Shown here in pieces: positions 1 to 38,633 of a DNA stretch of 64,000 nucleotides. The notes below the pieces were generated by a model. That model worked only from the letters and a program-made list of their open reading frames with translations. It was not told where the DNA came from and did no database searches. The translations under genes were made by a program, and so were the position numbers. Source of the DNA: Pseudoxanthomonas sp. SE1 (GTDB lineage Bacteria > Pseudomonadota > Gammaproteobacteria > Xanthomonadales > Xanthomonadaceae); assembly GCF_029542205.1 (NCBI RefSeq), contig NZ_CP113783.1, positions 2,843,001 through 2,907,000 on the forward strand, in the 5' to 3' direction. Numbering within the stretch: the first letter of the stretch is position 1; each line of letters opens with the position of its first letter.

Positions 1-796
1 CCAGTTCCGTATAGCATGCGGGCATAGGAACCGAGCATTGAGTTATGGGCTTCTTCAAAGTCAGCGTGTAAGGAGATGCAACCCTAGCAAGCCAGTCGAA
101 TCGGTACTTTATTCCCTTAGGTGAAGTGACAACAAATCCTTCACCGGCAATCCCATTGGCCGTCGAACCAACGCAAGAAACAACGTAATTCTTCGCAGTT
201 GTCCAATAGTACGGACCGCCCTCTGACGGTCGATTACTATTTCCCGGGGCAATAACAACCAAGCGCTGACTACCTATGCCTGGAATGTACAAGTCATTTC
301 CGGTCCAATATTCAGCACTCGAGAACGCACCAACCCCGCTGCTTGTACCGTATGTGACAGGCGGGGTTGCTTTCATGTGGTCGGAGGTGTCGACCGAGCA
401 GCGTCGATTGGGGTCGCCAGGCATAGACGATTTCCAACCTGTGCTAGTTGGAAAGATGCCCGAGATCCGCGGAATGTCGGGATACCAATCGCCCAGAATC
501 CCGCTTCTTATAAGAGACTCAGGCGAATATGCGCGAGCGAACCTAACCGGCAACTCATTGTTTCCTGGAAGGGAAATATCTTCCTGTACAAAGGTAGTCC
601 GTCCAGTGTAGAGATCAACACTGTCGCCGAAGACGTTTGGACCAAGAGCGGCAATCTGCGATCCGGCTTTAACTTTCTCGGAATAACTATCCCATACATT
701 GACTTGAGCAATGGCTTCGTCATACATCAGAAAACCGCAAAGCAGGATGAATACGCTAAACCATGTTTTTTGACTTGCAATGACTATAAACTTCAT
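1..796 (-). CDS. Secreted RHS/YD-repeat protein, N-terminal part (runs off left edge)
   Basis: This reading frame is open from an ATG at 796 to the window edge (about 265 codons). It begins with a Sec signal peptide: a basic start, a hydrophobic stretch at residues 12-23, and a likely cut after AIA at residue 30. The next part contains DSVDLYTGRTTF and DISLPGNNELPVRFARAYS, the N-terminal pattern I associate with xanthomonad RHS repeat proteins; the YD repeats and toxin tip would lie outside the window. An AAGGGA ribosome site sits 6 nt upstream of the ATG. It occupies the same place, beside repeat R1, as the RHS gene at 26319-30476, which suggests RHS genes are a fixed part of this element type. 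It is probably a contact-dependent effector; the tip is not visible. Confidence 0.85.
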   Translation of the reverse strand, partial: MKFIVIASQKTWFSVFILLCGFLMYDEAIAQVNVWDSYSEKVKAGSQIAALGPNVFGDSVDLYTGRTTFVQEDISLPGNNELPVRFARAYSPESLIRSGILGDWYPDIPRISGIFPTSTGWKSSMPGDPNRRCSVDTSDHMKATPPVTYGTSSGVGAFSSAEYWTGNDLYIPGIGSQRLVVIAPGNSNRPSEGGPYYWTTAKNYVVSCVGSTANGIAGEGFVVTSPKGIKYRFDWLARVASPYTLTLKKPITQCSVPMPACYTEL

Positions 797-1237
797 TTGA
801 ATCCCTTCTGTAAACAGGAATATCCGTTCGGTTACATACTTAGTTGTATTCGTGAGCAACGAATTACCTGATTATTACGACATTGATCCAACATATTTCA
901 CAGCGCATTTCCTACATCCATTCCAAGCCGATCAAGCAGTCGCGCGCAACTTTGGCATGCGCTAGCTCAGTCTGGGGCTTGGCTGATTCGGGTGCAGCGC
1001 TAGCTGTAAGGGTGGTCAAGTGCCAGCCATTGGCCGTACCCCGGACGGCAGATGGTTATTGCAACATTTCCCCGCGCTCACACAGCATGACTCCGCGCCA
1101 CCTTCATTCGTCTGAGCCTTCGCTTCCTGGCCTTCCGCGATCCGAAGCTTCATCTTCGAACAGCCAATTCAGCTCATTGCAGTCCAAACCTATTCGCTTA
1201 CCTATTGTCCCCCTTCTGGTAAAACTACACCCAAGAA

Positions 1238-1527
1238 ATCCGTCTTGGAAAGTCGGGAGTGCAGGTAAGCGTATGTAGGTCACTGCTCGCGTCACAGTGC
1301 GGGATGCCTGTATGGAGTGCATCCGCCCGATGCCCCACTTCGGCGCGCTCGGGGCTGCGTTTCCAACGCCGTTCTAGGACTTCCAATGCTCCCAGCGAAC
1401 GCCGCAACCCCTATTCGTACATTGCGTTTAACGACTAGCTGACGAACCCCTTGTCGCTACACGCATTTACCAAACCCTGAACGCACTTGACGCCCGTCAC
1501 ATTCGGGCGGAGGATCGGCTTGGGCGC
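1238..1527. repeat. Spacer repeat R1, copy 1
   Basis: About 290 bp closely match 30568-30858. Both lie upstream of an RHS gene and just before cargo slot 1. The middle begins with the head TGTATGGAGTGCATCC, followed by a GCCCC (1332-1336) / GGGGC (1351-1355) stem. That head also begins R2 and the copy at 39125, but after GTTCTAGGACTTCCA the R1 sequence differs from R2. No convincing ORF crosses both copies. The rest of 797-1566 shows nothing I can support as a gene. Confidence 0.85.
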
Positions 1528-1566
1528 CGACAGGGGTGAACGCGCCGCATTCGTTAGGGGCCAGAA

Positions 1567-1773
1567 ATGCGAATTCGGTATCGCAAGCCAAGCTTGAAGA
1601 CTCTCTTGGGCGCGACAGCCGTCAAGAAGAAGCTTAAGCGCGACCTCGGGGTCTATCAGGTCACGCGCGTGCTGAATGCACCCAAGAACGCGAAGCGCCG
1701 GACGAAGCGAGCGATGGGGCTTGAGTCTTCGGCTGCGAAGCTTTTCCGCTTTATCGCGAAGCTATTCAAGTGA
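1567..1773 (+). CDS. Small, very basic protein (68 aa), unknown function
   Basis: A 68-residue protein rich in Lys and Arg (KKKLKRDL, AKRRTKRAM), with no cysteines and no membrane segment. It opens the run of small plus-strand genes that fills cargo slot 1 of the first element, 40 bp after R1. The composition suggests a nucleic-acid-binding or DNA-compacting role, but I do not recognise a family. The downstream gene is also basic and low in complexity and begins 37 bp later, so they may be co-transcribed. The small size leaves some doubt that it is real. Confidence 0.5.
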   Translation: MRIRYRKPSLKTLLGATAVKKKLKRDLGVYQVTRVLNAPKNAKRRTKRAMGLESSAAKLFRFIAKLFK

Positions 1774-1810
1774 CGCTTCCCGACCACCTTGAATATTCCC
1801 CGGAGGATTT

Positions 1811-2059
1811 ATGGCTAAGAACGAGAAGACTTCGACCCATATCGCTTCGAAAGCGTCTGCAGTTCTTCGCAGCCCGAACTCAAGCAAGGCTGCGAAGTCT
1901 ATTGCAGGCAGTGCTTTGGCACAGGCCGGCACCGGCAAGACGACATCCCCCAAGATCGCAACCAAAGCATCAAAAGCACTGGATAGCAATCAAACCGGTA
2001 GGGCAAATAAGGCAATCGCTGGAAGTGTGCTCACGCAGAAGCCAGGGAAGCGTCGATAA
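1811..2059 (+). CDS. Histone-H1-like Ala/Lys/Ser-rich repeat protein (82 aa)
   Basis: The protein consists of two imperfect copies of a ~35-residue unit: IASKASAVLRSPNSS with AKSIAGSALAQ (about residues 11-38), then IATKASKALDSNQT with NKAIAGSVLTQ (about 48-76). The composition (Ala, Ser, Lys, Thr) resembles histone-H1-like bacterial proteins, so DNA binding is plausible but unproven. A GGAGG sequence at 1801-1805 lies 6 nt before the ATG at 1811. The internal duplication supports a real gene. It is part of the small-gene run in slot 1. Confidence 0.6.
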   Translation: MAKNEKTSTHIASKASAVLRSPNSSKAAKSIAGSALAQAGTGKTTSPKIATKASKALDSNQTGRANKAIAGSVLTQKPGKRR

Positions 2060-2302: not shown

Positions 2303-2824
2303 ATGAACATGCGCGCGAGATCGAAGGGGACTACAGGATTCTGGATAATCGGGGGCTTCGTCCTGCTTGTCGCAATGTGCCGGGCCAGCAAGGATGACCA
2401 CCGCAAGCAGGACACTACTCCCGCTACCCCAGTAGCAACCTCGTCGCAACTCGTGCAAGCGCCAATAGCCGAGCCGGCTGAGCCAATGTACGTTGCGACG
2501 AGTTCGCTCAACCAGCGTTCTTCGCCCAATGGGTCCGTAGTGGACAAGTCGACTGGTGGCGATACGGTGCACGTATACGAACACAGGAATGGTTGGGCAA
2601 GGATCACTCCGACGGGATCACCAGAACGCTGGGTGTCCTCGAAGCTGCTTTGCTCGGGGGCTGGCTGCTATACGCCACAGCCGAGACCGCGGACCAACTA
2701 CCAGCCAGCCCGATCCAATTACTCGGATAGCAATTGCCCCTGTTCGGGCAACCTAGTGTGCATCGGACCTCGTGGCGGACGCTACTGCATCACCTCAGGC
2801 GGACGGAAGCGATATGGCGTTTAG
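2303..2824 (+). CDS. Membrane-anchored SH3-domain protein with Cys-rich tail (173 aa)
   Basis: An N-terminal hydrophobic segment (about residues 12-26) anchors or exports the protein. A linker rich in Thr, Pro and Ala leads to a bacterial SH3 domain at about residues 60-118 (SSLNQRSSPNGSVVDK, TVHVYEHRNGWARI, WVSSKLL). The C-terminus holds several cysteines and a GPRGGRYCI motif followed by KRYGV, a small domain often found at the ends of secreted bacterial proteins. The likely location is the cell envelope; ligand unknown. It lies 16 bp after the KTSC gene in the same direction. Confidence 0.75.
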   Translation: MNMRARSKGTTGFWIIGGFVLLVAMCRASKDDHRKQDTTPATPVATSSQLVQAPIAEPAEPMYVATSSLNQRSSPNGSVVDKSTGGDTVHVYEHRNGWARITPTGSPERWVSSKLLCSGAGCYTPQPRPRTNYQPARSNYSDSNCPCSGNLVCIGPRGGRYCITSGGRKRYGV

Positions 2825-2844: not shown

Positions 2845-3261
2845 ATGAACCTTGAAACATCCAACACCCTCATTGGAATCGCCAGCTTCGCGTTAGGCGT
2901 CTTCGCTGTTTTCGGCCGTTTGAAACTTCTCACTCGGCGCGCCCTCAGCGCTGGTGCGACGCAAGCCAAGATATGGCTTAAGAGAAGGCAAGACGAGACT
3001 CAATTATATGCAGAATTTCCAAGTGCCTTTTTGGCCTATTGCGTTCGAAGACTGGTAATGGCTCTCATGCTTCTATTCCTACTCCCCTCGCTCTCCATCC
3101 TAATCAAGTCGGTTACAGCGACGCTTCAACCTCGGGCGGCCTCCGTTCTTTCATCGATCCCTCCATCGATATGCGGCATTCTTTTCGGGCTTGTCATATC
3201 TCGCCCTGACGACGTACTGCAGCATCTAAGGAAAGCGCATCCCAGCACTTCAGCATCTTGA
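2845..3261 (+). CDS. Small membrane protein, unknown function (138 aa)
   Basis: Three hydrophobic segments are visible: residues about 12-26, 71-90 (VMALMLLFLLPSLSILI) and about 105-123. A basic, charged stretch (KIWLKRRQDETQLYAEFP) lies between the first and second. It starts 20 bp after the SH3 gene and its end lies just before the next gene's likely ATG at 3273, so the run appears to be one operon. I do not recognise the family. Confidence 0.65.
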   Translation: MNLETSNTLIGIASFALGVFAVFGRLKLLTRRALSAGATQAKIWLKRRQDETQLYAEFPSAFLAYCVRRLVMALMLLFLLPSLSILIKSVTATLQPRAASVLSSIPPSICGILFGLVISRPDDVLQHLRKAHPSTSAS

Positions 3262-3272
3262 GTTTAGAAAAA

Positions 3273-4193
3273 ATGACAGAGCAAAGAATAAAGTTCGCTC
3301 TCTATCACCCGACGTGGGAGGTCGAGGGAGGTAATAGGCAACAGCTCGCCGAGTCGGGCGAGCCGATCATCCCAGCTGATGCGACCATTGACATGGAAGG
3401 AAGACTTTTCTGCCCTGAGTGCTTCACCCATGTAAGTCGGTCTCCGAAGGAACGACAAAGGTTCAGGAACGGCAGGAAGGCCTGTTTCGTTCATTGGCCA
3501 AGATACAGCGATGTGCCATGCAAGCTTCGCTCAACCAAGCCAGTGGGAATGCGCTTCGATACCGAGGAAGCTGCCGCAGAGGCACTCGACAGGGAAGATC
3601 TGGTTCTGATTAACCAATTTATGAGGGACCACCCTACATCGCCAGAATCGGTCGGCATGTATCAACAGACACCTGTTGAGGACATAGCAGGCCCTGTTTC
3701 TGAGGTGCCTATAGCACGACATCGAGGACAAACATTCAGGCTGCCCACTCGGATCTCGTCTATCCAGATGCTATGTCGAAGACTCGATACGAATCTGCAT
3801 CGCTACTTCATTCTTCCAGGCCACACGAATCCCCAACCACTGTATGACCTGTTGCATCCGGTTACCAGCATCAGTGATGTGGACGAAGTACCTAAGCTCT
3901 ACTTCGGAAAGATACAAAGGAGCTTCATTCCGAGTCCGAACCCTCAGCCGTATCACCTCCGTATGACTCGACTCTACTCCGGACCAGATATCGCCGACTT
4001 TTTCCTAAAGCAGAACCATGTAGAACAAGAGTCGAGAGGCATTGATGAGAGCAAGATCGATCACTACGTGATCTTTTGGTCGCGCATCACTCCAAACGGG
4101 ATCGGCTTGTGTGCAGAGCATCTCGGCTGGGGTGAGTATGCTTTGGTCCCAGAACGCTACACGCGCCTTCTTGACGAGCTAAGCGAGTCTTAG
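3273..4193 (+). CDS. Unknown protein with N-terminal zinc-type Cys/His cluster (306 aa)
   Basis: The reading frame opens at a TTG at 3258; I prefer the ATG at 3273. Near residue 48 the sequence CPECFTHVSRSP followed by KACFVHWPRYSDVPC supplies four cysteines and two histidines spaced as in a zinc ribbon. This resembles the N-terminal part of CoiA-type or other DNA-associated proteins, though I see no nuclease motif. The rest looks globular with aromatic-rich strands. It ends seven bases before repeat R2 (4200). It is the largest cargo gene of slot 1 in this element, where the second element has AIPR, so a defence role is possible but is only inferred from position. Confidence 0.65.
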   Translation: MTEQRIKFALYHPTWEVEGGNRQQLAESGEPIIPADATIDMEGRLFCPECFTHVSRSPKERQRFRNGRKACFVHWPRYSDVPCKLRSTKPVGMRFDTEEAAAEALDREDLVLINQFMRDHPTSPESVGMYQQTPVEDIAGPVSEVPIARHRGQTFRLPTRISSIQMLCRRLDTNLHRYFILPGHTNPQPLYDLLHPVTSISDVDEVPKLYFGKIQRSFIPSPNPQPYHLRMTRLYSGPDIADFFLKQNHVEQESRGIDESKIDHYVIFWSRITPNGIGLCAEHLGWGEYALVPERYTRLLDELSES

Positions 4194-4199: not shown

Positions 4200-4821
4200 C
4201 CTGTATGGAGTGCATCCGCCCCACCCTCCACTTTGGCTCACTCGGGGCGGCAGTCCCGGCACCGCTCTAAGACTTCCATGTCCCGAAACGCGGATCACCC
4301 GCATTGGGGTCAGTCAGGGGAGCGGCGCAGGCTCCCGGAGACACTTGGCTAGTCTTCGGACGTCCGAACGATGCTGTAACCATCTTTGGCGTACATGCCC
4401 TCAGTCTCGCCGTCAGGTGAGCACATCCGAACCGAGTAGTTCTTGCCAAACACGTACCGATAGACGTCTTCCACGTCGTCCAGCTGCACTTGGTTCTCCA
4501 CCTTGTTTGCCCCTGCTTGACCAATGGCTACACGGTAGGTCACCCGCCCCGTCTTGTTGTCGCGAAGCTTGTAGGGGTAAAGGCGTTCCCCGGAACTGTG
4601 CTCAAACCAGAATCGTCGGCTAATGCGCTCGTCTAGGGCTGTTGGCATCGTGGTACTGTAATGAGGATCATCCTTGTCGGAATGATACGGCAGAGCGGCG
4701 CATCTGCGATGCGTCGCCCCTTTGGCTGGGTCCGACGCTGATCCCCTTGCGGATCAAGCACTACCGGACCAACCCAGCGCCCCTGCCCGTCTCGGGCGAC
4801 GTCCCTTAAGCCGGGACCGAC
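4200..4821. repeat. Spacer repeat R2, copy 1, interrupted by a small gene cassette
   Basis: Sequence 4200-4329 and 4693-4821 together match the continuous 32938-33184. Between them lie ~363 bp carrying a gene on the minus strand (4349-4648). GAGCGGCGCA is present at both edges of the insert (4320-4329 and 4693-4702) but only once in the other copy (33057-33066). The head CTGTATGGAGTGCATCC is shared with R1 and 39125. A CGCCCC (4217-4222) / GGGGCG (4244-4249) stem follows it. Confidence 0.85.
4349..4648 (-). CDS. Small unknown protein in an inserted cassette (99 aa)
   Basis: A 99-residue soluble protein without a signal peptide or membrane segment. It has a charged, aromatic-rich sequence (RRFWFEHSSGERLYPYKL; VYRYVFGKNYSVRM). 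It is alone between two GAGCGGCGCA direct repeats within R2, which are absent as a pair from the other R2 copy, so the gene came in as a unit. I do not recognise the family. The ~20 bp between the left repeat and its stop codon leave no room for another gene. Confidence 0.65.
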   Translation of the reverse strand: MPTALDERISRRFWFEHSSGERLYPYKLRDNKTGRVTYRVAIGQAGANKVENQVQLDDVEDVYRYVFGKNYSVRMCSPDGETEGMYAKDGYSIVRTSED

Positions 4822-4937: not shown

Positions 4938-5912
4938 CTACTTCTTCGCCTTTGCCACCGTAGCAATGGACTTTCCTTCGTAGCTGCAATAGTGGTCCCG
5001 AGCTGCATCTCTCAATGACACGACACCCGCCTTGTCGATCTCCAGCAGCCCGCAGTCGTAGAGCGCATGCAGATCCTTCCGTAGCAGAAGACCGTCGCCG
5101 GCCTTGTTGTGGCCCTTGCGCCAGTCCCTGCCTTTGATATGAGCCGCGTCTAGAGCGCGTCCAATGCTGCAACCACTGACGGCGCACATGCCGTTGCTCG
5201 CGAGATAGACCCGCTTCCGGAAAGCCGCTTGCTCGGGGCGCACAGCCTGCCTAGCGAACTTGCTCGCACGCTGCTCCAGCGAGTTCCCAGCTGGCTCAAG
5301 GTCAGTCATCGACGTATCCGGGTTTCGACGCCAGTACTGATATAGCCGTTGTCGCTCAGCCTCGTCGTCAACTACCCCAAACTCTCTTTCAAGGCCGGCA
5401 GAACAACGTCCAGTGGCCGCATTGACCACTAGCGCCGTAAGAATCGGCTCACCCCTGTGATGCGCCTCGTGCCCGAGTGCGCCCAATGCCGTGCGAAGAT
5501 TGAACCGATCCAGGGAGAAAGCAGCCATCAGAGCACCATACGTCGCGGTGTCGGCTTTACGCGCAACTTCGATCAGCCAATGCCGCATCGCTGGAAGCTT
5601 CGCGTGATATGGGGCCATGCCATCCGGCTCAAGCAGTCTACGTAGCTTCGGGGTGACCCGAGGCCCCACGTTGGCAAGAGGGGCAAGTCCCTTCAGCCAC
5701 GCCTGCCCCATATCCGATAGCACAGCGGAGATGTTCTGCATCCGTCGCTCGAACGCACCGGCATCACGCCCGAACCTGGCCCCCAAGTCCCTGTAGATCT
5801 TGCTCTTGTTGTACGCGATTCCCGATGCATCAAGCTCCTGCATCTTTCGATAAGCAAGGACGGCTGCAGCAAGCTCACGGTCGTTCCAGCTAGTTCCCTC
5901 TTCCGCCATCAC
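4938..5912 (-). CDS. HNH endonuclease-domain protein (324 aa)
   Basis: The C-terminal quarter holds an HNH fold: CAVSGCSIGRALDAAHI, then GHNKAGDGLLLRKDLHALYD, giving the His-Asn-His set and two nearby cysteines, followed by GLLEID. This arrangement matches HNH_2-type nucleases. The N-terminal ~210 residues are helical and unrecognised and may give target choice. It starts at a double ATG. It lies in slot 2, between R2 and R3, on the minus strand, exactly where the second element has an Mrr-like nuclease, which suggests a restriction or anti-competitor role. The substrate is not known. Confidence 0.8.
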   Translation of the reverse strand: MMAEEGTSWNDRELAAAVLAYRKMQELDASGIAYNKSKIYRDLGARFGRDAGAFERRMQNISAVLSDMGQAWLKGLAPLANVGPRVTPKLRRLLEPDGMAPYHAKLPAMRHWLIEVARKADTATYGALMAAFSLDRFNLRTALGALGHEAHHRGEPILTALVVNAATGRCSAGLEREFGVVDDEAERQRLYQYWRRNPDTSMTDLEPAGNSLEQRASKFARQAVRPEQAAFRKRVYLASNGMCAVSGCSIGRALDAAHIKGRDWRKGHNKAGDGLLLRKDLHALYDCGLLEIDKAGVVSLRDAARDHYCSYEGKSIATVAKAKK

Positions 5913-6016: not shown

Positions 6017-6388
6017 ATGGACGACGCCCCCATGCAGTGGACTCATCTGGAACGCTACGACCAGCACTGGCTGAAGATCGATGGTCGGGAAGTTGCCCTG
6101 ATTTCCAAGCGTGTCCCCGGTGACTGGCTGGTGCACGTGAATCGACACCGAGAGTGGCAGCCGGGGATGCGCTGTTGTGGTGTTTCCCCGACGGTGCCTC
6201 ATGGCAAAAAGATGGCCGAACGATGGGCCCTGGTGAACGTGAACCGCTTGCGGGCCGAGATCGCAGCCTTACCCCGTAAGGCAGGGCTGCCTACGCTGCC
6301 AGTGGGTGAACCGAGGGTGTGGGTTCCGGAGCCACCCGAACCACCCAAGCCGCCCGGGAAGCCAAGGCGCCGAAAACGTCGCCGGTAG
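6017..6388 (+). CDS. Unknown protein with Pro/Arg-rich tail (123 aa)
   Basis: Residues 1-80 look globular (WTHLERYDQHWLKIDG; VPGDWLVHVNRHREWQ). The last 30 residues are a proline-rich linker (PEPPEPPKPPGKP) ending in a cluster of arginines and lysines, a common form for DNA- or RNA-contacting tails. It stands divergent from the HNH gene with 104 bp between their starts, and its end is 40 bp before R3. I do not recognise a family; it could be a small regulator of the slot, but this is a guess. Confidence 0.6.
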   Translation: MDDAPMQWTHLERYDQHWLKIDGREVALISKRVPGDWLVHVNRHREWQPGMRCCGVSPTVPHGKKMAERWALVNVNRLRAEIAALPRKAGLPTLPVGEPRVWVPEPPEPPKPPGKPRRRKRRR

Positions 6389-6428
6389 GATTCAGGACGT
6401 GACTGGCAATGCCGTTGGTGTAAGGCAG

Positions 6429-6702
6429 AACATGGGCTGACACTTCATACAAGCAGGCGTGGCCTTGGTAGGTCGAGCACGGCAGGCACGAGCACATCCG
6501 ACCGACTCGCCGAATATTGGGGAGGAACGGCTCCCGGCATGGAGTTTCGTTGCGTTACGGATGGAGTTCCGTCGTTGCCGGCAACATCAAGGCAGCTCCG
6601 GGCACTTCATACCTAAAACGCAACAGGAAGCCTTCTGGAGCCGTCGCGGTTCTGGGGCGACACAACTTCATCAAAAATACCGGAACGCCTCAGGGTGCTT
6701 CC
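6429..6702. repeat. Spacer repeat R3, copy 1
   Basis: About 274 bp match 34102-34375 (start AACATGGGCTGACACTTC, end GGAACGCCTCAGGGTGCTTCC). A frame in it (6517-6765, 82 codons) stays open through both copies where they align, with a few substitutions, but the second copy runs on into integrase DNA, so it may not be a gene. In this element R3 is followed by structured DNA and replication-like genes; in the second by a broken integrase. Confidence 0.8.
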
Positions 6703-6959: not shown

Positions 6960-8213
6960 CTACGGCTTCGGCCTCCGGTCTTCATTTGAAGACATCTCGG
7001 ATTCAACCTCGACGGCGTGGCCAGCACCTTCCGATCCGGCCACCTTCCGATCCAGCCTTTCGCGCTCGCGCTGCCTTTGCTTCCGCAGTGTCGCTGCATT
7101 GGTGGTGGCTGCTTTCACGGGATCGATGGATCCATACTCGGCGAGGATTATAGCGTCCACCTGTGCCTGGAATACCTGGCACTCAACCCGTACCGGACAT
7201 GTCGGGCAGTCTGTCGCAGTGGGCTCGTGCATACCGAAGCAGCCCGGCTTTGGTCGCTGCGCTTCCGTTGGCGGAACGGACAGCTCCCTCATCCGATGTG
7301 GGGTGTAATCCTGCACGCGATCCACCGCCTCGTCCCCGAATTGCTGTCGTGCTGCCCCCTCCGTGATGATTCGGCTGCTCTTCAACATCATGCTCAATTT
7401 GAAGAAGTCGGGGAACATCTTGGCTTTCAAGCGCAGGTCGTCATGCGCGGCTCGCTGGATGGGATCACCCCGGTAGTTCTCTACAAGGAACATTGGATCG
7501 AGGACTGCCGGGTCGTACTCGCGTAAGGCTGAGTTCCCGCCTTGCGTCTCGAATTCCTTAGCGATGTGCTCAATGATCTTCTTGCCATGCCAAAGCTGCC
7601 CCGGCTTCGGACAACGCCTATAGCCGGTCTTAAAGCGGTAATCAAATGCCGTCCGGATGTAGAAGTTGTATGGCATGCCGAGCGAATCTGCATGCCGCCT
7701 TGCGCGCCATAGGGCGATGATGTCGCTGTCAGGCCATAGCGATAAGGCTTCACGGGATGGCGCCGGAATGGACTTGCCAAAGTAGCGATCCTCATACTCA
7801 CGGAACACTTGGTCGAACTTCTTCGCGAAGTTCTCGGTCCGCCTCCATGGGCTTTGATAGCGATACGGCACAAACGCCCGCCCAAGCAAATCGGGCTCTT
7901 CAAGAAATCGCTCCGCTGGGATGATGGAGCGCGATATCGTGAGCTCGGCTTTCGCAATTGAAGAATTGTCGCCGCTCGAACGTGCGGCATCCAGCACTGC
8001 TTGTTTATCGACATGTCGGTCATTCAAGTAGAACTTGCGCTTGGGTCCGGGCGTCTTCAATGCGACTTCGGCCGGATAGCCCTTTTCGCGATTCTTGGCA
8101 CGCCTTGCCTTCTCGGACTTGGATAGCGTCTTCTTGGGCTTGCTACGCCCGCTCCATGTTGCTTTGTGTGATTTATTGCCTTTCTGATCGTGGTCGTTTG
8201 CATCTTCGGACAT
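6960..8213 (-). CDS. Unknown element protein with C-terminal Cys cluster (417 aa)
   Basis: The start chosen is the ATG at 8213, because a GGAGGG (8221-8226) lies 7 nt upstream; an in-frame ATG at 8228 is less likely. The first ~60 residues are highly basic. A central stretch holds LWRARRHADSLGMPYNFYI, whose DSLGMPYNFYI part recurs in the next gene as DSIGMPYQEYI. Near the end is a cluster GCFG...DCPTCPVRVECQVFQ that could bind zinc or an iron-sulfur cluster. No polymerase, helicase or recombinase motif is visible. Its place beside a structured, AT-rich site suggests replication, transfer or excision control. The family is not known to me. Confidence 0.65.
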   Translation of the reverse strand: MSEDANDHDQKGNKSHKATWSGRSKPKKTLSKSEKARRAKNREKGYPAEVALKTPGPKRKFYLNDRHVDKQAVLDAARSSGDNSSIAKAELTISRSIIPAERFLEEPDLLGRAFVPYRYQSPWRRTENFAKKFDQVFREYEDRYFGKSIPAPSREALSLWPDSDIIALWRARRHADSLGMPYNFYIRTAFDYRFKTGYRRCPKPGQLWHGKKIIEHIAKEFETQGGNSALREYDPAVLDPMFLVENYRGDPIQRAAHDDLRLKAKMFPDFFKLSMMLKSSRIITEGAARQQFGDEAVDRVQDYTPHRMRELSVPPTEAQRPKPGCFGMHEPTATDCPTCPVRVECQVFQAQVDAIILAEYGSIDPVKAATTNAATLRKQRQRERERLDRKVAGSEGAGHAVEVESEMSSNEDRRPKP

Positions 8214-8334
8214 GGCTTCGCCCTCCACCCAGCGTCTGGGTGCTATGCGATCAATGGTGGGAGCAGAGCTGGTAGGCGCCTACCAGTCGCTGCGAAAGTG
8301 ATTCGCGCGGATCTCTTGGATCAAAAGGCGCCTT

Positions 8335-10652: not shown

Positions 10653-10967
10653 TTGCCCGACAAGGCGACAGCCATCTTTGCGCAAAGACTGAAGGACGCC
10701 CGCGCGATGCGGGACGTGTCGCAGCGCGCGTTGGGAGCGATGCTCGGGATGACCAAGAAGAACGGCAGCGTCCGAATCAATCGCTATGAGCAACAGACCT
10801 CGCGCGCTGATATGGACACAGCTGCAGAAATCGCCGCAGCCTTGGGTGTGCCTCTTGCTTACCTGTTTGCGGAAGACCCCGGTCTTGCGGAATGGATACT
10901 CGCGTACGAGAAACTCGATGGCACATTGCGGCAAGAGATCTTGGACTCAATCCGCACGAGCCAGTAG
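10653..10967 (+). CDS. XRE-family helix-turn-helix regulator (104 aa)
   Basis: Residues 8-66 form a classic phage-repressor type helix-turn-helix (RLKDARAMRDVSQRALGAML, INRYEQQTSRADMDTAAEIA, LGVPLAYLF). The remaining ~35 residues are a short helical tail, so it has no peptidase or sensor domain. It lies upstream of the DUF4145 gene (gap 44 bp, same strand). It may be the element's maintenance regulator. No operator is obvious upstream. Confidence 0.8.
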   Translation: MPDKATAIFAQRLKDARAMRDVSQRALGAMLGMTKKNGSVRINRYEQQTSRADMDTAAEIAAALGVPLAYLFAEDPGLAEWILAYEKLDGTLRQEILDSIRTSQ

Positions 10968-11011
10968 CTCAAGACTTAGGTAGCCAATCAACTTTGGCTG
11001 GGGAACTAACG

Positions 11012-13403: not shown

Positions 13404-13406
13404 GAT

Positions 13407-25624: not shown

Positions 25625-25662
25625 CGATCACAAGACATGTCAAAAGTGGACGAATTCCCGAA

Positions 25663-25856: not shown

Positions 25857-25866
25857 GGAGCCGCGA

Positions 25867-30476: not shown

Positions 30477-30567
30477 GTTTCGCTCCATTCCAGCCCCTTG
30501 CAGGCCAGAGTCCATGCGTCCACCACCCCGGTGGGACACCCAATTTCGGCGAAGCTACTCCTAGCCG

Positions 30568-30858
30568 ATCCGTCTTGGGAAGTCGGGAACTGATGTAAAC
30601 GCATGTACAACGGTGACGACGCCCATAGAGCGAGACGCCTGTATGGAGTGCATCCGCCCGATGCCCCACTTCGGCGCGCTCGGGGCTGGGTTTCCAACGC
30701 CGTTCTAGGACTTCCAATGCTCCCAGCGAACGCCGCAACCCCTATTCGTACATTGCGTTTAACGAGTAGCTGACGAACCCCTTGTCGCTACACGAATTTA
30801 CCACGCCCTGAACGTACTTGACGCCCATCACATTCGGGCGGAGGATCGGCTTGGGCGC
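30568..30858. repeat. Spacer repeat R1, copy 2
   Basis: It is closely similar to 1238-1527 over ~290 bp, again between an RHS gene and cargo slot 1. The head TGTATGGAGTGCATCC and the GCCCC (30663-30667) / GGGGC (30682-30686) stem are kept. After about 30858 the two elements differ. I see no gene in 30477-30979. Confidence 0.85.
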
Positions 30859-30979
30859 ATGCAACGTAGTCAGCGCGTCCTGCTCGCTGGGGAGCGACCG
30901 CGAAACACAGATTCAGGATTTTCGACCGGGCTGCTGCTCTAGAAAGGAGCCAGGGCGAAAGCCACACACGGGGAAGGGA

Positions 30980-32914
30980 ATGGACAACATAATTTTATCG
31001 GGAATGCTGCAGGAATTCGCGAATCGCTATGAGCTCCAAAGCGAAAAGCAGGACCTCCAGTTCGAGAAGTTCTCCAACTATTGCTTATGGAAAGCAGACC
31101 ACTACGACTCGTTCGAGTTCAGCAAAGTCGAAACTGGCACATGCATAGGCGTTGATGGAGTGGCCATAACAATTGGTGGAGTCATCGTAAATGACCTAGA
31201 CGATGCCAAGGCGCTGACTCAAGGCAACTTCGACGCCCGTTTTCTGTTCTCCCAGGCTAAGACATCTTCCCACTTTGACTCGGGGGAGTTCTTGAAGTTC
31301 ATAGGTACGGTAAAACTGTTCTTTGAGAAGAATAGAAATGCGGTGCCAGAACAGCTTCGTAATGCCTTTGACATCAAAGAACACATCTACAGCCGCGCCT
31401 CCAAGCTGCGAAGCCTCCCGCAGGTTGCACTTTCTTACGTATACGCTGGAAAATATGCGTTAGATAAAAACACTGCAGCCCCGGTAATTGAGGCGCAAGC
31501 TACCTCCATAAGAGATCTTCCATACCTTTTCAGTGACGTCAGCTGGCGCGTCTACGATGGAGATGCGATCGCCAGACTCTATCGCGAGGCTCAGAATGAA
31601 ACCCAAAGGGAGATTTCATTTCAACGCCATGTCGCGCTCCCACCCATCAAAGGCTCCAGAGCTGCTTACATTGGAGTGGTTAAGTGCATTGACTACGTTA
31701 ACCTAGTCGAGAAGGAGAGCGGAGAACTCAATAAAGGCTTGTTCTTCGAGAACGTGCGCGACTATCTTGGTGATAGCAACTCGGTTAACGAGGAGATTGC
31801 AAAGACCATCCGCACAGAGGATGAAAGGAATAGGTTTGCGATACTTAACAACGGGGTGACCATCGTAGCCAAGAGTGTCACGCCATCGGGAGATTTCTTC
31901 AAACTCTCGGGCTTCCAAGTTGTTAACGGCTGTCAGACCAGTCATGTCTTGTACAACAACAAGAGCCTGCTTAGTGATGACATGTACATCACGGTAAAGC
32001 TTATCGAGACTTCTGACATAGACCTCAGTGGCAAGGTCATTGCAACCACCAATAGTCAGTCTCAAGTTACGAAAGAGGCACTAGCTACCATTCGTCCCTA
32101 TCACCGAAACATTGAGGACTTCTTCAACGCAATGCGCTCTTCCGGTTACAAGTATCGATATGAGCGCAGACCACACCAGTTCGATGGAATGGCTGGGATC
32201 TTTCAGAGCAACATCGTCTCTGCTCCACTCCTAATCAAATCGTTCATATCTGTCGCGCTTGAAGAGCCTCATAAGGTTCACTACTACTACGGCACCCTGC
32301 TTCAGGAATACAACAAGGATCAGGCTAGCGAACTCTTCGCAACCCACGACTACCCAGGAATGTACTTTGCAGCGCATCACATCTGCGCCAGAGTGAAGGC
32401 CGCTAGCGGAAAGTACGCATGGATGTCTAACTGGATTTATCACACTGCGCTTTTGATTAAAAAGCAGATAGCGCCTGACCTTCGAAAGGGATCTGAAGTT
32501 AATGACAGGAAGTTCCTGGAACTTCTCGGCCGCATTGATGAAGAGTTCGATTCAGCATACGAGATAGCCCGAAGACTGATTCAGGCAGAGAACTTGGCGC
32601 GTAATGACAATCGAGTTCCTGACGTCACAAAGAAGCTGCTTTCTAAAGTGCGAGCCGCCTCACAACAGAAGAGAAATGAGGCGGCTGGTGAAAGCACAAG
32701 AACGCCTCCGACGCTCTCCGACGGAAACTATGTTGGTATAGTTGATGAAAGTGCGTTCAGCCCATCTAGCTTCAATGTGCGATATGGCCCATTCATTCTG
32801 CAGGTAAAAAACAGCTCCAAGAATCAGCCTGTAGTAGGTAAGCGCATTCTCTTCAACATGAAGAATGGACTAGCCGAATGGGATTCTAAGCAGGAAGAGT
32901 TGTCCGCTCCTTAG
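30980..32914 (+). CDS. AIPR-family abortive-infection protein (644 aa)
   Basis: I choose the ATG at 30980, with a GGGGAAGGG ribosome site; a longer frame from 30818 crosses R1. The family signature is strong at about residues 250-330: FFENVRDYLGDSNSVNEEIA, RFAILNNGVTIVA and FKLSGFQVVNGCQTSHVLY. The AIPR domain (abortive infection phage resistance) is found in several single-gene or paired defence systems; its biochemistry is not settled. The protein has a charged tail. It is the only gene in slot 1 of this element and ends 23 bp before R2. Confidence 0.9.
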   Translation: MDNIILSGMLQEFANRYELQSEKQDLQFEKFSNYCLWKADHYDSFEFSKVETGTCIGVDGVAITIGGVIVNDLDDAKALTQGNFDARFLFSQAKTSSHFDSGEFLKFIGTVKLFFEKNRNAVPEQLRNAFDIKEHIYSRASKLRSLPQVALSYVYAGKYALDKNTAAPVIEAQATSIRDLPYLFSDVSWRVYDGDAIARLYREAQNETQREISFQRHVALPPIKGSRAAYIGVVKCIDYVNLVEKESGELNKGLFFENVRDYLGDSNSVNEEIAKTIRTEDERNRFAILNNGVTIVAKSVTPSGDFFKLSGFQVVNGCQTSHVLYNNKSLLSDDMYITVKLIETSDIDLSGKVIATTNSQSQVTKEALATIRPYHRNIEDFFNAMRSSGYKYRYERRPHQFDGMAGIFQSNIVSAPLLIKSFISVALEEPHKVHYYYGTLLQEYNKDQASELFATHDYPGMYFAAHHICARVKAASGKYAWMSNWIYHTALLIKKQIAPDLRKGSEVNDRKFLELLGRIDEEFDSAYEIARRLIQAENLARNDNRVPDVTKKLLSKVRAASQQKRNEAAGESTRTPPTLSDGNYVGIVDESAFSPSSFNVRYGPFILQVKNSSKNQPVVGKRILFNMKNGLAEWDSKQEELSAP

Positions 32915-33367: not shown

Positions 33368-33973
33368 CTAACGCTTGCCTGAGGTGAGCGCAAGGAGCCG
33401 CTTCCTGACTTCCTCACCGTCGTGCAGTTCCAGTCGAAAGGGCATATGCCGCGCGATACTGGGATCATCAAGAATTCTCGGAGCAAAGGTGGATGTCGTC
33501 GTAACAATCCCCTTTGTGGCGAGTGGATCGGACAACAAGACACCCACCAGGGCCCTGACGTCGTTCGCCGGAACCGGATTCCCCGGTGCGTACGCTTTGA
33601 CTTGATCGATGATGCGAATCGAGTGCAAACCGCGCTTAACGGCAATGATGTCACGACCACCATCTCCACTTCTCGGCGTCAGTACGACCTCATCGTATCC
33701 AGCCCTGTCGTAAGCTCCGGCAATCAGCTCTTCCCATTGATCCGGGGACAGCTGCGGAAGCTCAGACGGATTATCCCGGAGCAGCTTCCCAATGGCATCC
33801 CAGGCGGGCTGCAGAACGACAATGAGCGAACCTTCAGGGCGCCGTTCAACCCTATCGACAATGGCACCGACCAGAATCTCCGGCGCTGGTGGGGGCGTGT
33901 AAGTAGCTTTAGCGCTGTCCACCAAACGGGCCGAAGACCATCCCATCCCAACGCTGCTTCTGATCTCTACCAT
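33368..33973 (-). CDS. Mrr-like restriction endonuclease domain protein (201 aa)
   Basis: The C-terminal ~110 residues are an Mrr_cat fold: QWEELIAGAYDRAGYDEVVL, PRSGDGGRDIIAVKRG and RIIDQVKAYAPG. These give the Asp and Gln-x-Lys of the PD-(D/E)xK active site. The N-terminal ~80 residues carry no known domain. Mrr-type enzymes cut modified or foreign DNA. It is on the minus strand in slot 2 between R2 and R3, the same place and direction as the HNH gene of the first element. Confidence 0.85.
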   Translation of the reverse strand: MVEIRSSVGMGWSSARLVDSAKATYTPPPAPEILVGAIVDRVERRPEGSLIVVLQPAWDAIGKLLRDNPSELPQLSPDQWEELIAGAYDRAGYDEVVLTPRSGDGGRDIIAVKRGLHSIRIIDQVKAYAPGNPVPANDVRALVGVLLSDPLATKGIVTTTSTFAPRILDDPSIARHMPFRLELHDGEEVRKRLLALTSGKR

Positions 33974-34101: not shown

Positions 34102-34375
34102 AACATGGGCTGACACTTCATACAAGAAGGCGACACCTTGGTAGGCCGAGCATGCAGGGCAAGGGCAAACTAGAAGCAGTTGCCAAACGTTGGGCCGGGA
34201 CGGCTTCCGCCATGGAGTTTCGTTGCGTTACTGATGGAGTTCCGTCGTTGCCGGCAACATCAAGGCAGCTCCGGGCACTTCATACCTAAAACGCAACAGG
34301 AAGCCTTCTGGAGCCGTCGCGGTTCTGTGGCGACACAACTTCATCAAAAGCACCGGAACGCCTCAAGGTGCTTCC
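34102..34375. repeat. Spacer repeat R3, copy 2
   Basis: It matches 6429-6702. Immediately after it, the sequence joins the middle of an integrase gene (at ~34376, corresponding to 12460), so about 5.76 kb that follows R3 in the first element is missing here. The 130 bp before it (33974-34101) hold no gene that I can support. Confidence 0.8.
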
Positions 34376-34376
34376 A

Positions 34377-34933
34377 TCCAACAAGCGCCACTCGACGGCG
34401 TACGACATAGCAGCGCGCAACGTCGAAAAGTCCCGATGGGCCGTGATGCGTTCAACGGCGCGCTTGCCGTCTACGGGCGTCAGGCGATCGGACCACCAGC
34501 GATTGATCGTCGCCACGTCGATATCGGACATGGAGCGGTCCAGCAGGTCCGCAAAGTGTGTCTTGATCCGCATGACGTACTTGCTACCCCGGCGTAGCTC
34601 GGTAGCAGCCCAAGGGGCGTAATGGTCGTCAAGGAACTCCCGCAGGGTGCAGGCCCGTTGCTTGATCGTTGCCAAGGCTGGTAAACGCTGCTGGACGGCC
34701 TCAGCCACGGCCTGAGCCGCGTGCGCCCGGGCCTGCTCCAGCGTGAGGTGCTCAATCGAACCGAGCGTACGGCGCTTCCCATGCTGCCAGGTGACGACCC
34801 ACGCTTTATGCCCACTGGGCTGCACACGTAGGATCAAGCCTCGAACGAGGATGTCCCGCATCTCGTAGGGTTTGGGCTGGGGCTGGGCTTGGGCGACAAG
34901 ACGCTTGGTCAGGGTGATACGCATGCTGGGCAC
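34377..34933 (-). pseudogene. Integrase, N-terminal part only
   Basis: Residues 1-185 are nearly identical to the integrase at 11803-13017, up to DFSTLRAAMSYAVEWRLLD. The sequence then leaves the integrase at the R3 junction and reads unrelated residues. All catalytic residues are lost, so this element cannot move itself. The DNA upstream (to about 34990, TTTGGATGA) also matches the leader of the intact copy, up to the IS3 insertion. Confidence 0.9.
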
Positions 34934-34992: not shown

Positions 34993-36206
34993 TGGTCGGT
35001 AATCCCCCGCGGATTAGCTGACACCAGAAGTGGAATTTTCTCGTACGCTTTCCCGAGGAGGTTCCATGAAGAAGTCCCGATTCACCGACAGCCAGATCAT
35101 TGCCGTGCTCAAGCAGGCCGAAGGCGGTACGCCCGTGCCTGAGCTGTGCCGCGAGCACGGCATCAGCTCGGCGACGTTCTACAAGTGGCGCAGCAAGTTC
35201 GGCGGCATGGAGGAGGTCCATGGTCGCGCGGATGAAGGAGCTGGAGGAAGAGAACCGGCGCCTGAAGAAGATGTACGCCGACGCCCAGCTCAGCGCCGAC
35301 CTGCTGAAGGAGGCGCTGTCAAAAAAAATGGTGAGGCCATCTCAACGCCGGGAGATGGCCCGAACAACGGTCGAAGGCGGACGCACGAACATCCAGCACG
35401 CCTGCCGGACATTCGAGGTGAGTCAGACCTGCTACCGGTACCAGGCCAAGGCTTCGGACGAGAACGCCCGGATCGCGGACTGGCTGGTGCGATTGACGAC
35501 GACGTATCGCGACTGGGGCTTCGGTCTTTGCTTCCTGTCCTGCACCTGCGCAACGTGAAGGGCCTGGGCTGGAACCACAAGCGGGTGTACCGCATCTACC
35601 GGGAGTTGGAATTGAATCTGCGGATCAAGCCAAGGAAGCGACTTGTGCGCGAGAGGCCCGAGGCGCTGGCCGTGCCGGAGTCGATCAACCAGATCTGGTC
35701 GATGGACTTCATGCACGACCAGCTGGCCGATGGCCGCAGCTTCCGGTTGTTCAACGTCCTGGACGACTTCAATCGCGAGGGGCTGGCCATCGAGGTGGAC
35801 TTGTCGCTGCCCTCTGCCCGGGTGATCCGATCGTTGGAACAGATCATCGAATGGCGTGGCAAGCCGCGTGTCATTCGCTGCGATAACGGACCTGAATACA
35901 TCAGCGGGGCACTGCTGGCGTGGGCGGAACGCAACGGCATCCGGATCGAGCACATCCAGCCGGGCAAGCCACAGCAGAACGCCTACGTTGAACGTTACAA
36001 CCGCACGGTCCGCTACGCCTGGCTGGCCCCCGTACCCTGTTCGACACCATCGAGCAGGTGCAGGACAAGGCCACGCGCTGGCTATGGACTTACAACCATG
36101 AGCGCCCGAACATGGCGCTCGGCGGCATCACACACCAGCCATGAGGCTGGCGATGGCCGCATAGCTCCACTTTGGCGACTGCTAAAAAATGGGGATTACC
36201 GGTCCA
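34993..36206 (+). mobile_element. IS3-family insertion sequence (IS407-like), degenerate
   Basis: Ends TGGTCGGTAATCCCC (34993-35007) and GGGGATTACCGGTCCA (36191-36206) are imperfect inverted repeats. The 1.2 kb between encode a two-frame IS3 transposase. It lies just upstream of the broken integrase. Frameshifts make it inactive. Confidence 0.85.
35066..36144 (+). pseudogene. IS3 OrfA-OrfB transposase, frameshifted
   Basis: OrfA starts at ATG 35066 after a GAGGAGG site ([37 protein letters not shown]). The frame shifts at about 35210, where the leucine-zipper part follows in another frame ([19 protein letters not shown]). OrfB breaks at about 35535 (before [20 protein letters not shown]) and again near 36030 (after [12 protein letters not shown]). 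The rve core is otherwise clear: [32 protein letters not shown], with the DDE acids. The stop at 36142-36144 is earlier than usual for this group. Confidence 0.85.
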
Positions 36207-36245
36207 CATCCTTTCAGGTCAAAGTTCAATGTTGAGTAGCCGACT

Positions 36246-36944
36246 ATGCACAAACGCCTGTACTACCTAACATCGGCCGGATATGCCTTGCAGAACATCA
36301 GCAAGCAGCGCCTGAAAATATCGAGAATTGATGACCTCAACGATCCTTTCGAACTCCGCCCCGGGAATTTGCAAGACAGGTCGTTAAGAAAGAAATTCTT
36401 GGACTTCAGGAAGTCATTCCATGAAGAGCATGGAGTCATCTGCTTCAGTCAACGATGGAGCAATCCGGTTCTTTGGAGCCACTACGGTGACAAGCATCGT
36501 GGCATCTGCCTTGGGTTCGACGTTGGCGAACGCTATGTATTCCCTGTCAAGTATGTAGACTCCGTACAGCAGTTCGACCTCACCGCACTGGAATATGAAA
36601 ATGTGCGTGGGCTTGACTTTGCCCGTGACGAAGTTGCAAAGGTGCTAACCACAAAGTTCCGGCACTGGGAGTATGAAGATGAAATGCGCGCTTTCTGTCT
36701 ACTTGACCACTCAACCGCATTAGATGGCCTGTACTTCTACGAATTCGGTGCCGAACTGCGACTTCGTGAAGTCATCATTGGCGCTCGATGCGAAGAAAAG
36801 GTGGAGCGTGTTTGTGAAATCGCGCGATCGGTTTCTAACGACATCAAGGTCAGGAAATCCCGGCTCGCCTTCACAAAATTTGAGGTGATCGAGCACGCAG
36901 GCTTCACCAAGCGAATCTCCCGCTACATGCAAATGAAGCCTTGA
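36246..36944 (+). CDS. DUF2971 protein (232 aa)
   Basis: The pattern fits DUF2971: LYYLTSAGYALQNISKQRLK, RIDDLNDPFELRPGN, ICFSQRWSNPVLWSHYGDKH and GICLGFDV, followed by YEDEMRAFCLL. Proteins of this family are common near mobile elements and defence genes; no activity is established. It starts 40 bp after the IS3 end and ends 13 bp before the converging P-loop pseudogene, so it is the only complete gene in slot 3 of this element. Confidence 0.82.
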   Translation: MHKRLYYLTSAGYALQNISKQRLKISRIDDLNDPFELRPGNLQDRSLRKKFLDFRKSFHEEHGVICFSQRWSNPVLWSHYGDKHRGICLGFDVGERYVFPVKYVDSVQQFDLTALEYENVRGLDFARDEVAKVLTTKFRHWEYEDEMRAFCLLDHSTALDGLYFYEFGAELRLREVIIGARCEEKVERVCEIARSVSNDIKVRKSRLAFTKFEVIEHAGFTKRISRYMQMKP

Positions 36945-36956: not shown

Positions 36957-37388
36957 CTACGGAACCATTGCACCATACACGTACGCGGCGAGCTGATGTG
37001 CTGCCGCAAGGTTAGAAGCATCAAAGTAGTCTCTGTGGCACCCGACCTTGGGGACTTCAATCAATTGACCCCGATTCGCGTAAGAGGCAAGCACTTCCTC
37101 GATCTCCCCCCTTTGTTCGCGCAGCGCATACGATAACGTGGCACCTGTCGGACTCAAGTTCTGCGATGAAGCCCGCCAGGTCGGCAGCAACATCACCCCG
37201 ACTGACAATGCCGACACGTTTGCCGGCGTAATCAATAACAATTGGGAGAAATCGAGCTTGTAGCCGTACTTCGTGAACTTCACCGTCTTCGCATTGGGTT
37301 CCGACAAAAGAAGCCGGTTCAAATTATGCAAAGAGGTGGTCTTGCCAACTTGACCTTTACCCCGCAACGCAACTAAACGCTTTGTCAC
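36957..37388 (-). pseudogene. P-loop NTPase paired with H-NS, frameshifted copy
   Basis: It starts at GTG 37388 (TKRLVALRGKGQVGKTTSL, Walker A kept) and ends LAAAHQLAAYVYGAMVP, as in the intact copy at 17075-17503. In the middle, from about 37235 to 37120, the frame is wrong; read one base over, the sequence gives DYAGKRVGIVSRGDVAADL and CHVIVCAAR, which match the intact gene. Two compensating indels therefore spoil about 40 residues. Confidence 0.8.
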
Positions 37389-37407
37389 TTTCGTCGCCCT
37401 CAAATTG

Positions 37408-37804
37408 TCAGCCCGGGAACTTAGGGAACTTCTCGTTCGCGTGCCTTGCTTTCCATTCCTTGTAAGCAGCCGTCCCTTCCCACGCCGTAAAGGCACGGGG
37501 CGGACGACCCCGCCCCCGTCCAAGTCTCCCCCCGGAATGCGGTAACCAGTACTTCAGGGGCTACTTCCTTGCTTACGGGGGGGCCTTCTTGGGGCGGCCG
37601 GGACTGCTCGCACCAACGGCCGTAACGATCTCGGCCTTTTTTAGCTGTGAACAATGCCCCGTATTGGGACAACAAGCCCATGATCTCGGTATAGGCATCA
37701 GCTGACTGTTGTTGCGCGCAGCTGGACTTCCTGTTCTTCCAGCTTGCGGAGTTCCTCCACCTGGCCTTAGCCGTGGCGATGGAGTCGAGGGTTGGTTTGG
37801 TCAT
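37408..37804 (-). pseudogene. H-NS-like gene, multiple frameshifts
   Basis: It begins like the intact copy at 17522-17917 (TKPTLDSIATAKA). It then changes frame several times: before the coiled coil, again near TAKKGRDRYG, and again around ETWTGAGSSAPC. The true end, in another frame, is FPKFPG with stop at 37408-37410. The DNA-binding core (TWTGRGRPPRAF in the intact gene) is not readable in one frame. Confidence 0.85.
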
Positions 37805-37853
37805 TTTAATTGCCTGTTGTTCTCATACCGCATGCGGAAGCATGCAAGTCAGA

Positions 37854-38290
37854 TTAGTTCGGGCTGCCGAATAGGCTCCACTTGTCCTTGTACTTCTCGA
37901 TTAGCTTTCTCTGGATGGAATAGCGGGCGCCGTTGGGGCGATCGTACTTCTGCGTGTACTGCGAGACGATACGGCTTGGCACAACGTAGTAGTCGAACAC
38001 CTCTTCCACCTGCCCACCCTTCCTCATCTCGCTGATCATCACAAACACGTAGACATGCGACTTCGCAACAATATCTTGACAGTTCTTCCCCACCAGCCAG
38101 AAGGACGCCTTTTTTTGCTACTGGTCTTTACTTGGACCGAGAAGGCGGTGGAGCAGCTATGATTCGTCACCAGCAGGTCGGCTCCCGCAGCGCTGCGTGA
38201 AGTCGGTGACACTATGTAATTCTGCTTTGCCAACTCGGCTGCAGCGAGGAAAACACCTCGCATTCCCGACATTTGCCCCTTTGTAGCCAT
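37854..38290 (-). pseudogene. QxK nuclease-like protein, one frameshift
   Basis: Two frames join: MATKGQMSGMRGVFLAAAEL through GADLLVTNHSCSTAFSVQVK (38290 down to about 38110), and VGKNCQDIVAKSHVYVFVMI to the end (38093-37854). The break is at a run of seven A on this strand (T at 38109-38117). The combined protein, about 145 aa, has GADLL...VQVKTSSKK, an Asp...Gln-x-Lys pattern of the PD-(D/E)xK nuclease fold. It occupies slot 4. The homopolymer makes a sequencing error or a recent mutation possible. Confidence 0.7.
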
Positions 38291-38469
38291 CCTTCTGTCC
38301 TCCCCGAACGGCTCTGGCCGTGAAGTGCATAAATGGTGTTCTGCCCCTTATGGCTTGATCTTAGTGCCGCTCAGTCCGACCAACAAGCAGGCAAACAAGC
38401 GGTTCCACGACGCTTGGGCTATGCCACCCAAGCATGGACGATTGAGTCCTTAATAGTCCGCGTGCTGAA

Positions 38470-38633
38470 GCCGGCACTAAGCCAACCTACGCCCCGAACG
38501 TCGATTTCGCGCTTGGATGCGCTGCGTCCGCATCCGTTGGAAACACCTGAAAACAAAGGCCCCGTTAGTTAGGGCCTTGTTCGGTGTTGCTTGTAAGTGT
38601 CGCTTCGAACTGCGCTGGAGGCTTTACGAATGC
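38470..38633. repeat. Element end / att site D
   Basis: GCCGGCACTAAGCC, CGTCGATTT, TGGAAACACCTG, then a changed hairpin GGCCC...GGGCC, TGTTCGGTGTTGC and GGAGGCTTTACGAATGC. It runs into a second 5' half of tRNA-Thr. The hairpin has diverged (CCGTTAGTTAG) compared with A and C. Confidence 0.85.

Follow-up and report, generated by a model that had tools for sequence, protein, structure and literature searches.

P4-like satellites and P2-like phages carry antiviral hotspots, and the authors who studied them suggest that some of the exchange there occurs by homologous recombination (PMC9122126; this paper and the three cited below are drawn on in part). Here we describe a locus of Pseudoxanthomonas sp. 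SE1 at which two homologous integrative elements, A and B, hold variable genes in a conserved frame. It lies in a stretch of 64,000 nucleotides, called the window (contig NZ_CP113783.1, positions 2,843,001 to 2,907,000; G000:C1:2843001-2907000 in our numbering, G000 being the source genome, 4.23 Mb in one contig). Like the P4 and P2 hotspots, the locus combines a site-specific element, conserved genes and fixed positions with exchangeable defence genes. In the part of that work drawn on here, a single hotspot lies between coding genes (psu-int; gpA-gpQ), whereas A and B offer five or six such positions, or slots, some of them bounded by non-coding spacers (R1, R2 and R3).

Defence islands on mobile elements of Escherichia coli also use preferred integration sites and carry variable defence cargo at dedicated positions; as far as the portion consulted goes, they differ in host and elements, and in the repeated non-coding slot boundaries and the two elements in tandem found here (PMC10121019). 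Genomic-island hotspots (PMC12629846) and core defence hotspots (PMC10250203) of Pseudomonas aeruginosa share conserved borders and modular defence content in the parts drawn on. For the latter, recombination via the conserved flanks was proposed; their borders are core chromosomal genes, whereas those described here lie inside an integrase-bearing element. The Pseudomonas phage vB_Pae_U1 (PP003913.1, 16 kb) has an integrase 46% identical to ours at one end, with Rhs genes lying towards the opposite end, but no homologue of our backbone gene p422 or H-NS-like gene by tblastn, and the spacer queries match only 20 bp of the R2b part of R2 (E 0.005). No published account of an element of the A/B type was found in the literature searched, which took in few subscription papers. 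Hotspots of defence genes for which homologous exchange has been proposed are already known; the spacer-bounded form with multiple slots is new.

Results

A (window 1-18693) and B (25820-38633) are homologous, and in a self-comparison R1, R2, R3, the integrase gene, a pair of P-loop and H-NS-like genes and the element end were collinear at 81-93% identity. This bears out the claim of an earlier note, made from the letters alone, that two homologous segments carry the same parts in the same order with different genes between them. The R1 copies (1238-1527 in A, 30568-30858 in B) are 90% identical (E 3e-108), those of R2 (4199-4329 and 4693-4821 in A, 32936-33185 in B) 85-88% and those of R3 (6412-6702 and 34085-34375) 87%. 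Identity reaches 93% between the integrase regions (12461-13074 and 34377-34990; E 0), 81% in the H-NS region (17448-17918 and 37333-37805) and 84% at the element ends (18524-18692 and 38467-38633). The P-loop genes (17075-17503 in A, within 36957-37523 in B) are homologous as well (41%). R1, R2 and R3 had been proposed as separate spacers; a 79-bp repeat (1307-1385 in R1 of A) is common to R1 and R2, so these two are not independent. R2 of A is interrupted by an insert of about 365 bp, which divides it into the 79-bp repeat with R2a (4199-4329) and R2b (4693-4821); R2 of B is intact. Between R3 and the integrase, A has an extra slot (6960-11707) that is absent from B along with the C-terminal half of the integrase.

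We also considered the spacers as structured RNAs and rejected this. No Rfam match was found in the window at gathering cut-offs, the folding of the 79-bp repeat was barely above controls (9/100 as low), and that of R2b was modestly above column-shuffled controls (1/100 as low). Reading the 79-bp repeat as the attC site of an integron was likewise rejected, by eye and without a profile search.

Both elements lie within a 44-kb island anchored at a tRNA-Thr(CGT) gene, detected intact by ARAGORN 5.0 kb left of the window (L024, 14894-14969). Element A does not begin at window position 1, as had been stated, but at this tRNA, 5.07 kb further left. Copies of the tRNA-Thr 5' half with its 5' flank stand at 25816-25941 and 38621-38747 (92% identity), and an attachment (att) core, TTACGAATGC, is common to the tRNA and the element ends, starting at 18683, 25819 and 38624; the ends that had been given for the two segments coincide with it. 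As expected for an island that targets a tRNA, the locus encodes a tyrosine integrase and shares its core between the tRNA and the element end. To the right, homology with the chromosomes of two other genomes (G017 and G020) picks up again near window 40069-40083. The segment that precedes the core, or P arm, was aligned for 14 matches with E<=1e-17 out of 26 rows, the 12 weaker ones being excluded. The core is exact in 12 of these 14 sites. The tRNA 5' half follows in seven sites, a conserved non-tRNA 'b' arm in five and a looser form of that arm in one more; the last site is degenerate. According to this alignment, the core lies within the anticodon loop, and the left end of the element supplies its own tRNA 5' half, an older half remaining at the right junction.

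A lone core-b site lies far from the island at G000:C1:3950150 (L099), where the adjoining gene ends, judged by eye, in a SEC-C-like sequence. The idea that core-b sites mark where chromosomal insertions begin or end was ruled out at both sites examined, this one and one in G019: chromosomal homology restarts 226 bp and about 50 bp past the core-b site, respectively. The core-b pattern gave zero control matches across 38 genomes.

The 38 genomes of the genus were searched for R1 and R2 at E<=0.001. Each spacer matched in 8/38 genomes, nine in all. A tRNA-Thr stands on the same stretch in eight of these nine, found by ARAGORN in G000, G013, G014, G017, G018, G020 and G024 and by similarity in G019; the G023 contig, of 7.7 kb, is too short to judge, and the ARAGORN run on the eight stretches returned tRNA-Thr(CGT) in seven. 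With R1/R2 pieces at the same tRNA-Thr in 8/9 genomes, the spacers are not scattered. The refuting condition of the earlier note, scattering without the integrase and H-NS pair, is nevertheless only partly escaped: five of the nine carry them without a match to the integrase, H-NS or P-loop gene. These five (G013, G017, G019, G020 and G024) gave no match to the three A-type genes on stretches of 30-52 kb, and their loci are remnants at the same tRNA; an RHS-like gene is present in four of them. The G019 remnant has the first part of the 79-bp repeat joined to R2b (by eye), and a weak R2 match lies elsewhere in G020 (C3, E 8.5e-4).

Both G014 and G018 preserve the order R1, R2, R3, integrase, H-NS, P arm. 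G023 is split: one contig holds the 79-bp repeat twice, R2b, the start of R3 and p422, and the other the P-loop and H-NS genes and a P arm with the tRNA half; the integrase was not seen on either. The full 291-bp R3 was found in SE1 only. R2 is interrupted in A, G014 and G023; B, G018 and G024 have it in one piece.

What fills the slots differs between the elements (for the relatives, chosen open reading frames, ORFs, were scanned with padloc or Pfam, and several large genes had no match). Slot 1, from the tRNA to R1, holds an RHS gene in A, B and G014, none being detected in G018. Slot 2 carries SH3 genes in A and G014, an AIPR/AbiU gene in B, an ApeA-like gene in G023 and, in G018, genes without a Pfam or padloc match. 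In slot 3 we found an HNH nuclease gene in A and G018, an Mrr-like gene in B and ShosTA with SRAP in G014. Slot 4 contains p422, a MarR-like gene and a DUF4145 gene in A, a p422-like gene with DarTG in G014 and a p422-like gene in G018, and is absent in B. Slot 5 is occupied by Hachiman with DUF3223 in A, by IS3 and DUF2971 in B, by one gene of G014 without a padloc or Pfam match and by two of G018 without a padloc match. Slot 6 has a 158-amino-acid (aa) gene in A, a broken QxK gene in B, an OLD/AriA-like ATPase gene in G018 and a carboxymuconolactone-decarboxylase-like (CMD) gene in G023 (the profile match was obtained on the G019 copy); no gene precedes the first P arm in G014. Most cargo names first given by reading alone were confirmed by profile matches, namely SH3, HNH, AIPR, IS3, DUF2971, Hachiman (HamA/HamB), DUF3223 and Mrr-like; the KTSC name still comes from that first reading.

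Compared in 75-bp windows, the nearest relative of A changes along the element. It is B in R1, then G014 (93-100% from 1500 to about 2400, thereafter 79-92%); through most of slot 3 A is matched by G018 only; from about 6025 the nearest are G024b and G014, and from about 6541 B alone (5/162 mismatches). A and B differ at 6/142 positions in R1c (1386-1527), beyond which their homology ends. Mismatches between A and G014 fall from 13/94 (1406-1499) to 25/823 (1528-2350; Fisher 4e-5), and this latter segment is closer than a chromosomal AraC locus (151/1262 substitutions; 91% identity over a 943-base match; Fisher 3e-14). Site patterns of four elements were heterogeneous over seven scaffold segments (92 informative sites; 1/5000 permutations as extreme). 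G023 switches from G018-like (86%) to G019b-like (96%) sequence within 9 bp, about 410 bp past H-NS. G024b, at a tRNA-Met, shares with A the left flank of R3 (87% DNA identity) and p422 (42% aa identity), and its integrase is only 58% identical, making it a hybrid of backbone and integrase. At the level of sequence comparison, slot-by-slot exchange of cargo is well supported, and we infer homologous recombination in the spacers as its cause. The earlier note had suggested that the spacers may allow such exchange; support for this is only indirect and comes from the switches of nearest relative, which fall on spacer edges or close to them, and from the conflicting site patterns.

Relatives of the A integrase were found at E<=1e-30 in at least 31 of 297 family genomes (up to six candidates being scored per genome). 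p422 occurs in 12/297, in all 12 with an integrase relative within about 14 kb and in 10 within 7 kb (genome-level association, Fisher 2e-13). Among 16 family loci, 14 carry a tRNA or part of one (Thr, Met or Ala) and two carry none; p422 is present on 9/16. The protein has no Pfam or NCBIfam family and no solved relative. Its model is all-helical (mean predicted local distance difference test score, pLDDT, 69) and gave no structural match at E<=0.001; invariant cysteines lie near the C-terminus, with 13 protein-database matches among the candidates scored.

A phage or plasmid origin was not favoured, integrase relatives from such sources all lying below 60% identity: the viral_contigs pattern scan returned no integrase relative, and the 1250 phage records matched were all below 60% identity. 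The integrase scored 51.7 bits with the NCBIfam integron integrase model (cut-off 265), and attC-like remnants were seen, by eye, in relatives only, which does not describe an integron with an IntI-type integrase and attC. Relaxase or conjugation genes were absent among the Pfam-scanned window proteins, many small ORFs lying outside the scan, and Pfam recognised no satellite replication, capsid-hijack or phage structural genes among the scanned proteins.

The RHS gene of A enters the window by its 5' end (1..859, minus strand); its ORF, of 1675 codons, continues for 4.2 kb past the left edge of the window, and the name follows its likeness to the B gene and the first reading. Slot 2 holds the SH3_3 protein gene (2303..2824, plus; Pfam), in a segment 92% identical to G014 at the DNA level (1406-2824), followed by two genes (138 and 311 aa; 2845..4193, plus) without an assigned family. 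The insert that splits R2 encodes a 99-aa protein (4349..4648, minus) whose homologues split R2 in G014 and G023; a short repeat, GAGCGGCGCA, stands at both of its edges (by eye). The HNH_2 nuclease gene of slot 3 (4938..5912, minus) has a homologue with 89% aa identity in the same slot of G018. R3 with its left flank spans 6017..6702, of which 6412-6702 is common to B and 6017-6411 to G014, G018 and G024b. Next come p422 (6960..8228, minus), a MarR-like winged helix gene (9007..9573, plus; match below the curated cut-off) and the DUF4145 gene (10892..11707, plus). The intact tyrosine integrase has 404 aa (11803..13017, minus; PF00589 E 9.6e-30). Hachiman (13104..16909, minus) comprises adjacent HamA (15947-16909; E 3.5e-105) and HamB (13407-15950; E 1.1e-292) genes and a DUF3223/HamC2-like gene (13104-13403). 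The P-loop gene, with a Pfam match below the cut-off and a Walker-type motif recognised by eye, is followed by the H-NS-like gene (17522-17917, both minus) and by the 158-aa gene (17966..18442, minus). The right end of A (18523..18693) consists of the P arm, a terminator-like hairpin (by eye) and the att core TTACGAATGCG at 18683, after which the b arm begins.

Two units, A' and A'', lie between A and B, both entered through b arms. A' carries what is left of the C-terminal part of another tyrosine integrase (18742..19032, minus; PF00589 below cut-off), and a P arm, core (23032) and b arm (22872..23042) stand between the two. A VOMI-domain protein is encoded in this region at 20733-21419, beside a gene (21639-22778) whose LuxR-type match is weak.

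The left border of B (25659..25942) shows a P arm, the core and the tRNA-Thr 5' half with its 5' flank. After it come the RHS gene (1406 aa; 26319..30539, minus), R1, the AIPR/AbiU-family gene (30818..32914, plus), the unsplit R2, the Mrr-like, type IV restriction endonuclease-like gene (33368..33973, minus) and R3, which adjoins the cut integrase, a 215-aa ORF corresponding to the N-terminal half (34286..34933, minus). Slot 5 (35030..36944, plus) holds an IS3-type transposase gene (35030-36235) and a DUF2971/PDC-S31 gene (36246-36944). The P-loop gene and the H-NS gene, frameshifted by several frame-breaking indels, span 36957..37804 (minus). The nuclease-like QxK gene, so read by eye, is broken into two overlapping short ORFs (37854..38290, minus). 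The right end (38467..38748) again comprises a P arm, the core and the tRNA-Thr 5' half with flank. With its integrase cut, its H-NS and QxK genes broken, and its RHS, AIPR, IS3 and DUF2971 ORFs open, B is decayed and should be incapable of moving by its own integrase. An older remnant follows at 39123..39403, with a copy of the 79-bp repeat (39123-39179) and a degenerate P arm (39284-39403).

Several small units were seen in other genomes. Units of about 1 kb adjoining tRNA-Thr in G020 and G032 (L035 4147-4991; L064) hold only the 158-aa gene, a P arm and a tRNA half, without an integrase. Together with its P arm, the CMD gene shows 95.7% identity across 1.08 kb between a G019 site away from the tRNA and the tRNA array of G023 (L061 9058-10132; L067, G023 C50; L164). 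A SnoaL/DUF4440 gene unit is 96% identical in G019 and G030 (L061 8212-9016; L063); an attC-like degenerate sequence (by eye) borders it and is present beyond H-NS in G014 and G018. A region matching ArsH/aquaporin-like genes of G019 (names by eye) adjoins tRNA-Thr at G010:C9:50273-51612 and G029:C6:1266364-1267704.

Discussion

We read A and B as tandem members of a single family of integrative elements that target tRNA-Thr(CGT) and whose slot cargo has been exchanged in the shared spacers, and give this a probability of about 70%. The integrase would perform the insertions, including in trans for units without their own. Two elements in one cell could then recombine in shared spacers, replacing cargo slot by slot. 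H-NS may silence the element, and B, having lost half of its integrase, might persist as a store of cargo exchanged with later arrivals such as A.

Several observations weigh against this reading. R1 and R2 are both missing, at the threshold used, from 29 of the 38 genomes, and the known elements are few (A, B, G014 and G018, plus G023 with its integrase unseen). An integrative family with cargo slots, as the earlier note had put it, stands insofar as the order is kept in G014, G018 and the split G023 with different defence cargo; the likeness is incomplete, since in G014 and G018 only the right part of R1 is present, without the 79-bp repeat, and R3 is reduced to its left flank and first 40-48 bp, and G014 has an unrelated 255-aa gene in place of the P-loop gene. 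Homologues of the H-NS gene are present in other places in the genus as well. The chromosomal yardstick is the single AraC locus, and the divergence between A and G014 climbs again within the cargo (69/474 in 2351-2824), so not all rate changes sit at spacers. R1c and the P arm together hold 45/92 informative sites, which makes the heterogeneity supportive, not conclusive, and the integrase segment conflicts internally (7, 8 and 2). Homology that stops at a spacer edge fits insertion beside the spacer, too.

Tandem duplication of one ancestral frame could also yield such a pair, if the spacers have a regulatory or terminator function and cargo came and went next to them through ordinary insertions and deletions, with no recombination within them. 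Spacer conservation of 85-90%, near the 93% of the integrase, is what functional DNA would show, R2b folds better than its column-shuffled controls, and both the 5.8 kb that B lacks relative to A, which start at the R3 edge and reach into the integrase, and the repeat-R2b fusion of G019 fit such events. We nevertheless consider this unlikely: the nearest relative of A switches from one part of the element to the next and where cargo begins or ends, the scaffold segments conflict in their grouping, A and G014 differ less in slot-2 DNA than at the AraC yardstick, and the folding of the 79-bp repeat hardly exceeds that of controls. We are equally doubtful of a cassette array built by the integrase, comparable to an integron or a composite staphylococcal cassette chromosome, in which short units, with P arm and core as their limits, were captured singly and the likeness of A to B is merely part. 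Units bounded by P arms do occur in the window, G014, G020 and G032, with sizes of 0.8 to 4.3 kb, the CMD gene recurs with its P arm in G019 (C5) and G023, and P arm-core-b junctions recur. R1-R3, however, lie inside A and B, away from any exact core, so cores do not explain slots 2-4; the resumption of homology beyond core-b means that the core is not the border at the two sites concerned, and the CMD unit has no core at its left edge. Finally, chance or compositional matches among the conserved pieces are scarcely credible given the E values of R1 and the integrase and the absence of control matches to core-b.

Our preferred reading, of tandem elements exchanging cargo in their spacers, can be extended, tentatively and with rather low confidence, to a platform of two levels. 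The integrase would stack units at one tRNA in trans, even single-gene units that lack an integrase, and the internal non-coding spacers would serve as joints at which stacked elements swap defence cargo.

How defence genes enter and leave dedicated hotspots is left open in the parts of PMC9122126 and PMC10250203 drawn on. Here, short non-coding boundaries, several comparable slots and two adjacent elements make breakpoints mappable and exchange testable at the bench. The matching frame with other cargo in relatives suggests that such bacteria may be able to change their defences slot by slot.

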